Below are positions 42,816 through 49,052 of a stretch of DNA of 64,000 nt, in pieces. A model generated the notes under the pieces. The model had not been told where the DNA came from, searched no databases, and saw only the letters and a list, made by a program, of their open reading frames with translations. This DNA comes from Methanosarcina barkeri 3 (lineage in GTDB: Archaea > Halobacteriota > Methanosarcinia > Methanosarcinales > Methanosarcinaceae): the NCBI RefSeq assembly GCF_000970305.1, contig NZ_CP009517.1, forward strand, positions 2,480,001-2,544,000, read 5' to 3'. Numbering within the stretch: position 1 is the first letter of the stretch; every line of letters begins with the position of its first letter. The translations under genes and the position numbers were made by a program.

Positions 42816-43080
42816 TCACCCGAGTCCCGTCTCGGGAGGACGGGGCCCTTTTCGCTCACTTCGTTCGCTCAAGAGGGCTGAATTATAATGAAAACACTGA
42901 AACCCTAGTTCCGTCTCGGGAGGACGGGGCCCTTTTCGCTCACTTCGTTCGCTCAAGAGGGCTGAATTATAATGAAAACACTGAAACCCTAGTTCCGTCT
43001 CGGGAGGACGGGGCCCTTTTCGCTCACTTCGTTCGCTCAGGAGGGCTGAATTATATGAAGATTCTGAGTTGAGGCAAGGG
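42816..43080. repeat. 84-bp tandem repeat, three copies
   Basis: GTCTCGGGAGGACGGGGCCC starts at 42829, 42913 and 42997, an exact 84-bp period. Each unit also has TCGCTCACTTCGTTCGCTC. A decayed fourth trace (TTTCGTTTCGGGAGTAAGC, CGCTCACATAA) follows to about 43150. The repeat is GC-rich in AT-rich DNA. ORFs in both strands are repeat artefacts. It precedes the methyltransferase gene. Confidence 0.88.
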
Positions 43081-43268: not shown

Positions 43269-44225
43269 ATGCTTTTACAGGAACTCCTTGGCATTAGTGA
43301 AGACATTTATTTTGTAGAGGAAAGCTATCTCGCCCAGAGGACTATTGAGCGTACACTTGACTATCTTAACGGAGTCAGGAGGTTTGCAGAGACAGGGAAG
43401 GTGAGGCTCCTGAGAGTTCATGAAGGTGAGCACACACTCGGGCTTTTTCTTTTTAATTCTGCAGACGAAGAAGTCTCTGTAGATTTCTGGTCGGTTTTTA
43501 CGGGAGCTCTTGCAGAAGCTCGCTCAAAAAAGGATTTTGAGATCCTTGTAGATCCTCTTCTTACATTTAATCCTCCTGAAAGAGAGGTTGAAGTTTCTTC
43601 GGAAATATGGCGAGATGCCGTCAATGAGTACTACTCGCTTATGCTTGTAAACAGGAACCTTTGCCTGGGTTGCGCGGTCAAACCCGAGTCTTATGGGAGT
43701 GTTTTTTCTGAAAATCGTGTACGAAGGGTTGAAGAAATCTTCGATATTCTTCAAAAAAAGGGGATTTTTCCTGAAGGCAGGCTTCTTGAAGTCTGCTGTG
43801 GAAACGGGATGTCTACACTTGCTCTCTACAGGCTCGGACTTAATCCGCTGGCTGTAGAGATTAACAAATGTACAGTCTGCCAGGGGCTTGAACAGGGAGT
43901 TTTAAACCCTCAAAGAACGGTTGTAATGGATGCAACGGCTCTTTCCAGATATTTTGAGCCCGGAAGCTTTGATGGTGTGATGGGGTTTATGCTGGGGCTT
44001 GTCTATGAATTTAATAAAGATATCTGGGTAAATATTATGAAAGAGGTGGTCTCGGTTTCAAATGAAGGCGCTCTCATGCTTTTTACAGTTAGCAGCAAGC
44101 CTGAGGCTGAAATTCTTGCTGGAGCTCTACTCAGAGCAGGAGTTAAAGGTGAGATCGTAGATAATACCGATTCCGAAGGGACTTACGATCAGTGGCTCTT
44201 TATAGGAGAAAAACAAAAAGCTTAA
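43269..44225 (+). CDS. SAM-dependent methyltransferase (class I), unknown substrate
   Basis: A 318-residue protein. The C-terminal Rossmann domain has motif I LLEVCCGNGMSTLALYRLGL (about 177-196), an acidic residue in LAVEINKC, VVMDATALSRYF and PGSFDGVMGFMLGL. The N-terminal ~150 residues are specific to this family (LLQELLGISEDIYFVEESYL, NRNLCLGCAVKPESYGS) and hold a CxxC-like LCLGC. The target is unknown. Confidence 0.75.
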   Translation: MLLQELLGISEDIYFVEESYLAQRTIERTLDYLNGVRRFAETGKVRLLRVHEGEHTLGLFLFNSADEEVSVDFWSVFTGALAEARSKKDFEILVDPLLTFNPPEREVEVSSEIWRDAVNEYYSLMLVNRNLCLGCAVKPESYGSVFSENRVRRVEEIFDILQKKGIFPEGRLLEVCCGNGMSTLALYRLGLNPLAVEINKCTVCQGLEQGVLNPQRTVVMDATALSRYFEPGSFDGVMGFMLGLVYEFNKDIWVNIMKEVVSVSNEGALMLFTVSSKPEAEILAGALLRAGVKGEIVDNTDSEGTYDQWLFIGEKQKA

Positions 44226-44394
44226 TCTGGAAGCTGTAAACTCAAGGGAATTGCTATTTTTCAGTTCAGACAAGTATATTTTTTATTTCCAGTTCTCTAA
44301 AAATTTTAATTTTCTATTTTCTAACCCATAAATTTTCAGATAAAGCTTATAATTGTATCAGGAACCTGGAACTTTTTTAAAACTACCCTTCTAA
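44226..44394. other. Gap upstream of the pyc operon
   Basis: AT-rich sequence without ORF; leads into the BirA-box-like site. Confidence 0.3.
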
Positions 44395-44440
44395 TGTTAA
44401 CAGGCGAAAAGTATATACTTGTTAACAATTGTATATTAAA
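44395..44440 (+). promoter_or_regulatory. Putative BirA operator and promoter of pycBA-birA
   Basis: TGTTAACA (44395-44402) and TTGTTAACA (44419-44427) form a spaced pair with 19 nt between the inner bases. They resemble the BirA box halves TGTWAAC/GTTWACA, whose usual spacing is 16-17. A TATA-like GTATATTAAA follows at 44431-44440, about 300 nt before pycB. A BirA with a DNA-binding domain is encoded in the same operon. Confidence 0.45.
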
Positions 44441-44739
44441 GAATTCTTATCAATGAAGATATATTAAGTACTTCATTTAAGTCAGTAATATTGATTTCCT
44501 CCGATTGCGGTTCCGGAATGTCAGTCAAATATAAATGAAAAACCCCTCTTTCCGGTAAAAGAGTAGAAAATTGTATTAAAACTGCAATATGAGGGCTTAT
44601 GTACTTTACTCAAACGGATCAAAATCTTAACCCTGATAATTCCGGAATATCAAATGAAACCCTCCGGAATGACTGTTCAAAGTTTGCTATAAGGAATAGT
44701 AAATCCGGTTATTTTGATTCGATTTTAAGAGGTTCATCC

Positions 44740-46461
44740 ATGAGTGTAAAAATTACCGAAACCATCCTCCGAGATGCACATCAATCTCTCCTGGCAACCA
44801 GAATGAGGACAAGAGATATGCTCGAAGTGGTTGAACAACTGGACCAGATAGGGTATTTCTCCCTTGAAATTTGGGGAGGTGCCACCTTTGACAGCTGTAT
44901 CCGCTACCTTAACGAAGATCCCTGGCAGCGCCTGAAGGATATCAAGAAAGAAATGAAAGACACCTACGCTCAGATGTTGCTTAGGGGCCAGAACCTTGTA
45001 GGGTACAGGCACTATTCGGATGACGTGGTCGAGAAATTCGTTACTAAATCCTACCAGAATGGAATTGACATTTTCCGGATATTTGACGCTGTCAATGATA
45101 TCCGGAACATGGAATTCTCTATCAAAGTGGCAAAAGGTCTTGGTGCGCACGTACAGGGTACGGTCTGCTACACCATAAGTCCGGTACATACCGTTGAGAA
45201 ATATGTTGAACTTGCAAAACAGCTTGAAGAACTGGAGTGCGATTCCATCTGTATCAAAGATATGGCAGGTCTTCTTTCCCCAAATGATGCCGCACATATA
45301 ATAAGTGCCATGAAAAAAGAAATCTCAATTCCGATTTCTCTACACTGCCACTGCACTTCTGGAATGGCTCCAATGAGCTATATGGCAGCCTGTGAGGCAG
45401 GAATCGATATTCTGGACACTGCACTTTCTCCCCTTGCCTGGGGAACTTCTCAGCCTCCAACCGAAACAGTAGTAGCCGCTCTCAAAGGCACTCCTTATGA
45501 TACCGGGCTGGATCTGAATGCTTTTAAAGAAGCAGTTAAATATTTCAAAACATTAAAAGAAAAATACCGGGGCATACTCGATCCTATTACCGAACAGATC
45601 GACACTAACGTGCTCATTTACCAGATCCCGGGCGGAATGCTCTCTAACCTTGTATCTCAACTAAAAGAACAGAACGCTCTTGACAAATATGATGCGGTAC
45701 TTGCTGAAATGCCCAGGGTTAGAGAGGAGCTTGGATATCCGCCTCTTGTCACTCCTACAAGCCAGATCGTGGGCACTCAATCAGTTCTTAACGTGCTCAT
45801 GGGCGAACGCTACAAAGTTATTCCTAAAGAAGTAAAAGATTACGTTCGCGGTCTTTACGGGCGCCCTCCTGCTCCAATAAGCCCGGAAATAATAGGCAAG
45901 ATAATCGGGGACGAAGAGCCTATTCACTGCCGTCCTGCCAATCTCCTTAAACCTGAATATGAGAAAAGGAAGAAGGAAGCCGAAGAAATAGGTATTGCTA
46001 AATCTGAAGAAGATATACTTACCTATATTCTCTATCCGGCTATCGCTCCCAAGTTCCTGAAGGGAGAAATGGAAGAAGAAGCTCTAGCAGTAGTTGCATC
46101 TGCACCTGCAGTCCAGCAGGAACACAAAGTCCCAACTCATTTCAAGGTCGAAGTGGATGACGAAATCTATGAGGTCAGGATCGAACCTCTCGGCGGGGAA
46201 GTATCCATATCTGAAGCTTCTCCCAAAAAGCCGAGTGTAGAGTCCGTTAAAGGAGCTGTGAGCGTTTCAATGCAGGGCATGGTTCTCTCTCTTAAGGTCA
46301 AGGTCGAGGATACTGTTGCAGAAGGTGACACGATTGCTGTTATCGAAGCTATGAAAATGGAAAACGCTGTTCATGCCGCCCATTCAGGCATTGTAAGAGA
46401 GATTTTTGTTTCCGAAGGGGACACTGTATCTCCTGGCGACATAATCATGTCAATCGAATAA
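44740..46461 (+). CDS. pycB: Pyruvate carboxylase subunit B
   Basis: A 573-residue protein. The carboxyltransferase domain (TETILRDAHQSLLATRMRTR, LEIWGGATFDSCIRYLNEDP) is followed by the conserved domain to about residue 460. The C-terminal biotinyl domain has EAMKMENAV with biotin on K539. It transfers carboxyl from biotin to pyruvate, giving oxaloacetate for 2-oxoglutarate and aspartate synthesis. The length matches the two-subunit methanosarcinal enzyme. The ATG at 44740 is used; a 47-residue in-frame extension from 44599 is not family-like. Confidence 0.97.
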   Translation: MSVKITETILRDAHQSLLATRMRTRDMLEVVEQLDQIGYFSLEIWGGATFDSCIRYLNEDPWQRLKDIKKEMKDTYAQMLLRGQNLVGYRHYSDDVVEKFVTKSYQNGIDIFRIFDAVNDIRNMEFSIKVAKGLGAHVQGTVCYTISPVHTVEKYVELAKQLEELECDSICIKDMAGLLSPNDAAHIISAMKKEISIPISLHCHCTSGMAPMSYMAACEAGIDILDTALSPLAWGTSQPPTETVVAALKGTPYDTGLDLNAFKEAVKYFKTLKEKYRGILDPITEQIDTNVLIYQIPGGMLSNLVSQLKEQNALDKYDAVLAEMPRVREELGYPPLVTPTSQIVGTQSVLNVLMGERYKVIPKEVKDYVRGLYGRPPAPISPEIIGKIIGDEEPIHCRPANLLKPEYEKRKKEAEEIGIAKSEEDILTYILYPAIAPKFLKGEMEEEALAVVASAPAVQQEHKVPTHFKVEVDDEIYEVRIEPLGGEVSISEASPKKPSVESVKGAVSVSMQGMVLSLKVKVEDTVAEGDTIAVIEAMKMENAVHAAHSGIVREIFVSEGDTVSPGDIIMSIE

Positions 46462-46482
46462 TATAGTGAGGTGGAAGGCATT

Positions 46483-47964
46483 ATGTTCAAAAAAGTACTC
46501 ATTGCAAACCGCGGTGAGATTGCAATCAGGGTTATGCGTGCCTGCCGCGAACTTGGAATTTCCACGGTTGCGGTCTGTTCAGAAGCTGATAAAAATGCCC
46601 TTTTTGCCAAGTATGCAGATGAGGCCTACCTGATAGGCCCGGCCCCTTCCAGCCAGAGCTATCTGAATATGGAGGCTATTCTTGCAGTTGCAAAAAGCAC
46701 GGGAGCTGAAGCAATTCATCCGGGTTATGGCTTCCTCTCCGAAAACCCTGTCTTTGCAAAACGCTGTGAGGAAGAAGGAATTGTTTTCATAGGTCCTCCA
46801 AGCCATGTGATTGCCGAGATGGGAAGTAAGATCAGAGCCAGAAACCTTATGATGAAGGCTGGCGTTCCTGTTGTGCCTGGGACGAAAGATGCGGTTGAAG
46901 ACCCTGTTGAGGCTGTAAAAATTGCAGAAGAGATCGGCTATCCTGTTTTGATTAAAGCTTCGGCAGGCGGCGGCGGAATTGGAATGAAAGTGGTTGATTC
47001 CAGCGATGAACTTGCTGCTGCACTCAGCTCTACCAGGCAAATGGCTGGCTCAGCTTTTGGTGATTCCTCAGTTTTCATTGAAAAGTATGTAGAGGAACCC
47101 AGGCACATAGAGATTCAGATTCTGGCAGACGGATATGGAAACACAATTTATCTCTCAGATAGGGAATGCTCCATTCAAAGAAGGCATCAGAAACTTATTG
47201 AAGAAGCGCCTTCCCCTATCATGACTCCTGAACTAAGGGCCCAGATGGGAGAAGCCGCGGTCAGGGTAGCAAAGACAATTGGTTATGTAAATGCAGGGAC
47301 AGTGGAGTTTCTTTATTCAAAGGGCAACTTCTATTTCCTTGAAGTCAATACTCGCTTGCAGGTCGAACACGGAATAACTGAGATGGTTACAGGTGTTGAT
47401 ATTGTAAGAGAGCAACTCAGGATAGCCTGGGGAGAAAAGCTTGAATTTAATCAGGAAGATATCATTATTGACGGGCATTCTATTGAGTGCAGGATCAATG
47501 CAGAAGATCCGTTAAATGATTTTGCTCCTTCCCCCGGAAAAATCCGTGGATACCGGTCAGCAGGTGGGCCTGGAGTTCGAGTGGACAGTGGAGTACATAC
47601 AGGTTATACCATTTCACCTTACTACGATTCAATGATTTCGAAACTTTGTGTCTGGGCAAAGACAAGAGACGTAGCGATTGCCAGGATGGAAAGGGCGCTT
47701 TACGAGTATGTGGTCGTTGGAGTAAAAACTAATATCCCCTTTCATAAAGCGGTTATGCGCAACCCTGCTTTCCGCAGAGGCGACCTTACAACGGCTTTTA
47801 TTGAAGACCATAATATTCTGGAAGCCGTTGAAGAGGTTGTCAAAGCAGATGCTGAAAAAGGAGCTACTCTGGCTTCGGCTCTTCAAGCAAAAGACAAAAA
47901 AGTTGCGGCTATTACAGCTGCCGTGCACGCCTATGTGAGCATGGCACAGAATACACAGCGATGA
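46483..47964 (+). CDS. pycA: Pyruvate carboxylase subunit A (biotin carboxylase)
   Basis: A 493-residue ATP-grasp biotin carboxylase: [35 protein letters not shown], the Gly-rich loop [22 protein letters not shown]-type block ([18 protein letters not shown]) and [16 protein letters not shown]. It carboxylates the biotin on PycB using ATP and bicarbonate. It lies 21 bp after pycB; start ATG at 46483, with GTGAGGTGG ahead. Confidence 0.97.
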
Positions 47965-48074: not shown

Positions 48075-49052
48075 ATGGGAGATAAAAGATCTCGAATTAT
48101 CAAGGCACTTAAAGATGCACAGGAAAGTCCTGTTTCCGGAGAGGAATTGGGGCTTAAGTTAGGGATCTCAAGGACAATGGTCTGGAAATATATCAAGTCC
48201 CTTCAGGCTGATGGTTATGAGATAGAATCATCCCCGAAAAGGGGATATGTCCTGAAATCCGTACCTCAACTTCTGTACCCGGAAGAAATCCAGATGGGGC
48301 TTAAAACAACTCTTCTAGGTAAAAAAATCCACTATTTCGAAGAGGTAACTTCTACAAACAGTATTGCAAAAGAAATCGCGGTATCGGAAGAAGAAGGCAC
48401 GCTTGTAATTGCCGAAGTGCAGAAAGGAGGCAGGGGTCGGATGGGCAGAGAATGGGTCTCACCTCATGGTGGGATCTGGATATCTGTGATACTGAAACCC
48501 GGAATCCCTCTAAGGCATGCCTCAAGGCTAACTCTGGTTGCAGGGCTTGCAGTTGCAAACGTTATTCGCAATATCGGCCTTGATGCACGTATTAAATGGC
48601 CAAATGATGTCCGTATTAACGGGAAGAAAGTCTGTGGAATTCTTACCGAAGCAAAGGCCGAAGTGGATAGGGTAGATTATGTTGTGCTGGGAATAGGAAT
48701 TAATGTAAACATGGATTTGAAAGATATCCCTGAATCTTTCCGTGCAGGCTCTACAACTTTGAAAGCCGAACTTGGAACGCATATAAAAAGGGTTTCGTTC
48801 CTGCAAGATTTCCTTTTTGAACTTGAGCAACAGTATATACTCTTTAAGACCCAGCCTTTCTCACACATTCTCAATGACTGGCTTGCTCTCTCCGACACCA
48901 TAGGAAGAGAAGTAAAGGTCACGACGCCCTCACGAATTATAGAAGGCAAAGCCGTAGGAGTAACCCCGGACGGAGCTCTCGTAATAAGAAAAGCTGACGA
49001 TACTAAAGAAGAAATCATTGCAGGCAGATGCATTTATGCGCGTTCCAGATGA
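48075..49052 (+). CDS. birA: Biotin-protein ligase with N-terminal HTH (BirA)
   Basis: A 325-residue bifunctional protein. The N-terminal winged helix (SGEELGLKLGISRTMVWKYI, then KSLQADGYEIESSPKRGYVL) is followed by the ligase domain with KGGRGRMGREWVSPHGGIW, LDARIKWPNDVRINGKKVCG and the C-terminal SH3-like cap. It makes biotinyl-AMP and attaches biotin to PycB, and the HTH suggests it represses the pyc operon when biotin is ample. It follows pycA by ~110 bp and overlaps the next ORF by 17 bp. Confidence 0.96.
   Translation: MGDKRSRIIKALKDAQESPVSGEELGLKLGISRTMVWKYIKSLQADGYEIESSPKRGYVLKSVPQLLYPEEIQMGLKTTLLGKKIHYFEEVTSTNSIAKEIAVSEEEGTLVIAEVQKGGRGRMGREWVSPHGGIWISVILKPGIPLRHASRLTLVAGLAVANVIRNIGLDARIKWPNDVRINGKKVCGILTEAKAEVDRVDYVVLGIGINVNMDLKDIPESFRAGSTTLKAELGTHIKRVSFLQDFLFELEQQYILFKTQPFSHILNDWLALSDTIGREVKVTTPSRIIEGKAVGVTPDGALVIRKADDTKEEIIAGRCIYARSR

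Follow-up and report, generated by a model that had tools for sequence, protein, structure and literature searches.

A 35-bp inverted repeat, ATGTTAAC-AGGCGAAAAGTATATACTT-GTTAACAA, was found at positions 44394-44428, ahead of the pycB-pycA-birA genes, in the 64-kb stretch of Methanosarcina barkeri 3 DNA analysed here (hereafter, the window; 2,480,001-2,544,000 of a 4.56-Mb single-contig genome). This site is probably the operator through which the operon's own BirA represses pycB-pycA-birA, by a block of TBP and TFB, and the same protein would repress bioY (the biotin transporter gene) via an ordinary BirA box. Comparison of the sequences thus suggests that the cell shuts down the pyc-birA operon when biotin is plentiful.

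The paired motifs which the original prediction had placed ahead of pycBA-birA are real: in the whole window, the exact word TGTTAACA has just two copies, at 44395-44402 and 44420-44427. With one mismatch allowed, this word matched 38 times (33.5 expected) and was not enriched. Each of the two exact copies is a palindrome by itself. The left half-site of the dyad, ATGTTAAC (44394-44401, + strand), and the right half-site, GTTAACAA (44421-44428, + strand; part of the 10-bp palindrome TTGTTAACAA), show 1 mismatch of 16, and the form ATGTTAAC-N19-GTTAACAA is conserved. The gap was measured between the 8-mers TTGTWAAC and GTTWACAA, and was 19 at the pyc site of the window. The spacer contains, on the same strand, the BRE-like CGAAAA (44405-44410), which is a putative BRE, and a probable TATA box, GTATATAC (44411-44418), which adjoins the right half-site. 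A TATA-like box had been predicted just after the pair of motifs; the TATA-like word that is conserved among the species, preceded by CGAAAA, sits inside the pair instead. A second TATA-like stretch (44430-44436), 3' of the box, was partly conserved in the species with a gap of 19, and could be the promoter element in use instead.

The pycB upstream scan covered 72 regions (the window and 71 of 78 fetched loci, which contained pycB), and the dyad was searched with two or fewer mismatches and with gaps of 15-22 at pyc and bioY alike. Five genera had the pyc dyad, in 36 of their 38 sequences: Methanosarcina (g1; 26 of 28), g4 (2/2), g5 (4/4), g6 (3/3), and g8 (1/1). The lack of conservation that had been named as a reason to give up the original prediction was therefore not seen in Methanosarcina. 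The two sequences of this genus that were missed (L042 and L092) have ATGTCAAC 27 bp from GTTAACA, and the genomes G097 and G098 show a pyc gap of 27 and a TGTCAAC half. In the 26 Methanosarcina sequences with the dyad, the left half was ATGTTAAC (22 sequences) or ATGTCAAC (4), the right half GTTAACAAT was invariable (26/26), and the gap was 19, 20, or 21. Inside the spacer, and thus flanked by both half-sites, lay a conserved BRE/TATA-like part, CGAAAAGTATATAC, with CGAAAA in 22 of the 26 spacers and the TATA-like word GTATATAC (18), GTATTTAC (7), or GTATTTAG (1). In full, this part reads GTATATACTT or GTATTTACTT, with a single GTATTTAGCT, and lies beside the right half-site, as does the corresponding TATTTATA of g6 and g8. 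A TATA-like word was found in the spacer of all 36 pyc dyads (loose test, run without a control). Within the 430 non-coding bp that precede pycB, conservation in the 28 Methanosarcina rows was highest over the 34-35 bp of the box and promoter (mean majority share: 0.95 for the box, 0.70 for the 430 bp).

In the other eight genera (g3, g7, and g9-g14), the pyc dyad was found in 1 of 34 sequences, the single case (L120) being without the TATA-like word; this is not beyond chance, as shuffled pyc upstream regions gave the dyad with two or fewer mismatches in 18 of 1440 cases. With one or no mismatch, the level of the window, the dyad appeared in 1 of the 1440 shuffled regions. In other families of the class, 20 stretches ahead of pycB were scanned (two of them shorter than 400 bp); none had the dyad with two or fewer mismatches, and the best (L320) had three. 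In the PycB+PycA tree (34 rows, 6 outgroup rows), labelled by genus, the box-bearing genera formed one clade (support, 100/99) and the remaining genera a weaker sister group (81/74); one branch likewise separated the box-bearing from the box-less genera in the 52-row tree to which BirA was added. The simplest account of these trees would be that the pyc dyad was gained once, by the common ancestor of Methanosarcina, g4, g5, g6, and g8. As a separate observation, a 16-mer, ACCAGAAACTACATAA, was present in exactly one copy in each of 38 of the 111 family genomes, always just upstream of pycB (about 90-150 bp; for example, L060, L077, L080, and L120). All of the 38 genomes belong to g3, g7, g10, g11, and g14, genera without the BirA-like pyc box, in which the 16-mer may take its place as an operator or a promoter element; both the box and the 16-mer are absent from g9, g12, g13, and part of g7.

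The bioY gene was matched in 102 of the 111 family genomes, and the dyad with two or fewer mismatches was present in 67 of 70 bioY upstream regions, from 10 of the 11 genera sampled (shuffled regions, 14 of 1400). The misses were L177 (g1), L170 (the sole g4 row), and L201 (g5). In the genome of the window, the bioY box (4099660-4099691; gap, 16) and the bioY domain (4098870-4099301) are on the minus strand, and AATGTWAAC and GTTAACAAT are common to the pyc and bioY sites. For the comparison of the flanks in Methanosarcina, the rows without a box (two for pyc and one for bioY) were left out; at bioY, the left ATGTWAAC was found in 25 of 25 rows and the right GTTAACAAT in 24 of 25. It is chiefly this agreement of half-sites and flanks that points to a single protein for both sites, and BirA, a candidate with the appropriate domain and regulon, would be this protein. 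The targets are biotin genes, as pycB and birA lie downstream of the pyc dyad and the sister site lies before bioY. The two sites differ in three respects. The gaps did not overlap (19-22 in the 36 pyc boxes and 15-18 in the 67 bioY boxes), an inner C (left) and G (right) pair was present in 54 of the 67 bioY boxes but in none of the 38 pyc sequences of the box-bearing genera, and in Methanosarcina the bioY half-sites are located just 3' of the TATA-like TTTTAAAT, not around it. The typical bioY box of the genus is ATGTAAACC-N14-GGTTAACAA, directly 3' of GGAAAGTTTTAAAT, which is likely to be the BRE/TATA of bioY.

The bare pair of half-sites is not more frequent than expected by chance. The pattern TGTTAACN{8,38}GTTAACA was found at 3 places in the genome, as was the reversed pattern, and TTGTWAACN{17,22}GTTWACA at 1 place (the pyc site) as against 2 for its reverse; in the family, the latter pattern gave many scattered matches, in 49 of 111 genomes. 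Our confidence in repression by BirA through this operator is slightly lowered, since the looser patterns were no commoner than their reversed controls. The fuller pattern, ATGTWAACN{15,22}GTTRACAA, had 2 matches in the 4.56-Mb genome (the pyc site and the bioY upstream region) and none when reversed. Over the genus (30 genomes) it had 52 matches, assigned by coordinates to regions before pycB (22), before bioY (25), or elsewhere (5), and the reversed control had 13. What stands out from chance is the fuller pattern with its place and conservation, not the bare pair. The five matches elsewhere (two in G087 and one each in G091, G093, and G094) were not counted as BirA targets, because no biotin gene was recognised among the downstream open frames inspected; note that, in L301 and L304, the contig ends close to the dyad. 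The BirA-box-like dyads of L300, L301, and L302 (three sites, two in genome G087 and one in G091) have near-identical flanks and look like a dispersed repeat, and no biotin gene was recognised near them.

The operon encodes both a biotin enzyme and a BirA with an HTH domain, as had been predicted. The pycB gene (44740-46461, + strand; matching HMGL-like, PYC_OADA, and Biotin_lipoyl) encodes the biotin-carrier/carboxyltransferase subunit of pyruvate carboxylase. Its start was set at 44740, since strong conservation begins just before this position, at an SD-like AGAGGT; 44599, the beginning of the open frame, was rejected for the same reason. It is followed, on the same strand, by pycA (46483-47964; biotin carboxylase subunit), for which ATG at 46483 was preferred to GTG at 46471, and by birA (48075-49052; biotin protein ligase with an N-terminal HTH), assigned by domain profiles. 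BirA of the window matched HTH_11 (5.3e-17), BPL_LplA_LipB (2e-23), and BPL_C (1.2e-12), and thus has the HTH, BPL catalytic, and C-terminal domains of a Group II biotin protein ligase; the assignment is also backed by S. aureus 6ndl and E. coli 1bia. The protein is 99% identical to BirA of Methanosarcina spelaei MC-15. A relative of BirA was found in 104 of the 111 family genomes, most alignments starting at residues 1-7; the HTH profile itself was run, among the BirA proteins of the family, on that of the window. As BirA aligns through the HTH region in the eight genera without a pyc box, BirA need not control pyc. In L310 (G010, genus g6), a second BirA-box-like dyad (135-168; gap, 18) is located between pycA and birA, directly before birA. 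Upstream of the operon, a methyltransferase-like gene, for which the Pfam matches were just below the curated cut-offs, ends at 44225, and an 84-bp unit is tandemly repeated upstream of this gene (42818-43059; 2.9 copies, 97% matches).

The consensus BirA box published in PMC545781, TTGTAAACC-[N14/15]-GGTTTACAA, corresponds to a gap of 16/17 between the 8-mers, and the E. coli bioO (L336) has a gap of 18. The gap of 19 at the pyc site is thus 2-3 nt above that of the consensus, which agrees with the original prediction. The pyc site resembles bacterial BirA boxes and bioO in half-site sequence (inverted TTGTWAAC and GTTWACAA halves), in the inverted repeat, in a genome-encoded biotin protein ligase that carries an HTH, and in the biotin genes as targets, but differs from them in the gap (19-22, and 27 in two genomes, against 16-18), in the absence of the inner C/G (the CC...GG of the consensus), and in the core promoter nested in the spacer. 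The prediction of a BirA box therefore stands as to the halves and flanks, which are conserved as at bioY, but not as to the inner C/G pair and the spacing, which lies outside the 15-18 of the 67 bioY boxes; the geometry of binding may differ from that of the textbook box.

We infer the following course of events. With ample biotin and the apo-PycB consumed, biotinyl-AMP-charged BirA would accumulate and bind both half-sites around the BRE/TATA of pyc, so that the loading of TBP and TFB would be sterically blocked and pycB-pycA-birA repressed; bioY would also be repressed, via the ordinary box just 3' of its TATA. Since no protein of the genome other than PycB matched PF00364 (the sole biotin-domain model tried), repression would set in once apo-PycB is exhausted and biotin is left over. 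TBP/TFB occlusion is a common mode of repression in archaea. Once bound to biotinyl-AMP, E. coli BirA forms dimers, which then bind to the operator and repress it (PMC6391492), and B. subtilis BirA is reported to bind its own operators only with biotin and ATP (PMC4016012). The latter paper also reports weak binding of B. subtilis BirA to the differently spaced E. coli bioO, which indicates that spacing matters but is not absolute. From the distance of about 19-22 nt between BRE/TATA and the transcription start predicted for M. psychrophilus (PMC5378194), the transcription start of pycB would be near 44437-44441, which would give a leader of about 300 nt. A possible stem-loop of 7 pairs (44452-44477, + strand) lies near the predicted 5' end of this leader. 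In 13 Methanosarcina rows, selected by eye from the 28, 97.8% of its cells were paired; 8 cells (a value reached by 0 of 500 shuffles) and 3 pairs (a count reached by 143 of 500 shuffles) were changed on both sides. In a search of 44226-44760 against Rfam for a riboswitch, the sole match up to an E-value of 1 was a miRNA family (20.4 bits; cut-off, 50).

Since half-sites and flanks are shared with bioY, the dyad is conserved in the genus and in four related genera, and BirA bears an HTH, the comparisons argue well for a BirA site with biotin control of pyc. Against BirA stands the variable gap (19-22, and 27), which is awkward for a dimer that needs a fixed helical phase. This variability (19-27), the missing inner C/G pair, and the palindromic nature of each window TGTTAACA would suit another winged-helix/HTH regulator that binds each TGTTAACA separately, the likeness to a BirA box being convergence. 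We regard this as unlikely, because the halves in g6 and g8 are mostly TGTAAAC/GTTTACA (the E. coli type), which are not self-palindromic (left half, TGTAAAC in 3 of 4 rows; right halves, GTTTACA or GTTCACA); the self-palindromic reading of each TGTTAACA was thus set back. In addition, 11 of the 26 Methanosarcina rows have G directly after the left half and therefore lack the full palindrome, and the only other match to the fuller pattern in the genome of the window is the bioY box.

The variable gap, and hence the variable helical phase, would also be compatible with a BirA that binds the pyc site but activates or fine-tunes, for example as two monomers leaving room for TBP; sequential assembly of S. 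aureus BirA monomers on DNA is possible (PMC6391492). This seems improbable to us, as the 19-bp stretch filled by BRE/TATA abuts the half-sites, so that co-occupancy looks crowded, and as the known action of BirA is repression (PMC6391492, PMC4016012). It is slightly more improbable still that the stretch is a conserved core promoter only, with the flanking TGTTAAC/GTTAACA as promoter context and no operator. The BRE/TATA-like part is indeed conserved about as well as the half-sites, but the latter are kept while the spacer varies in length (19-22) and in sequence (GTATATAC, GTATTTAC, and, in g6 and g8, the TATA-like TATTTATA), and identical half-sites at bioY are 3' of TTTTAAAT. Repression by the operon's own BirA is thus the reading that we prefer.

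Rodionov, Mironov and Gelfand (2002; Genome Res 12:1507) reportedly proposed an archaeal BirA signal with co-regulation of a carboxylase, so that carboxylase control by BirA in archaea is an old idea. The same grouping of the M. barkeri pyc genes with bpl/birA was reportedly given by Mukhopadhyay et al. (2001; J Bacteriol 183:3804), together with a bifunctional BirA of the E. coli type; that paper is not known to describe an operator. A literature search at the level of titles and abstracts gave no report of BirA control of pyc in Methanosarcina among the matches listed. The pyc operator is counted as new for its geometry and not for its regulator, since it would belong to a class of wide operators that enclose the promoter.

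We tentatively propose, at somewhat less than even chances, a second class of BirA operator, in which the halves lie on either side of an archaeal BRE/TATA at a distance of 19-22 bp, or even 27 bp. BirA would tolerate this because its DNA-binding domains are not phase-locked, so that one repressor would use two geometries in one genome. The class would have arisen once, in a common ancestor of Methanosarcina and related genera, and acceptor, ligase, and transporter would share a single biotin switch. If this is true, the two BirA operators of different spacing in one cell would be a natural pair for a direct test of the rigidity of the BirA-DNA dimer. A bacterial-type repressor would have been adapted to an archaeal TBP/TFB promoter through the placement of TATA between its half-sites, and the sole PF00364-type biotin acceptor found in the genome of the window, its ligase, and its transporter would form one feedback loop read by free biotinyl-AMP, in a genus with genetic tools.
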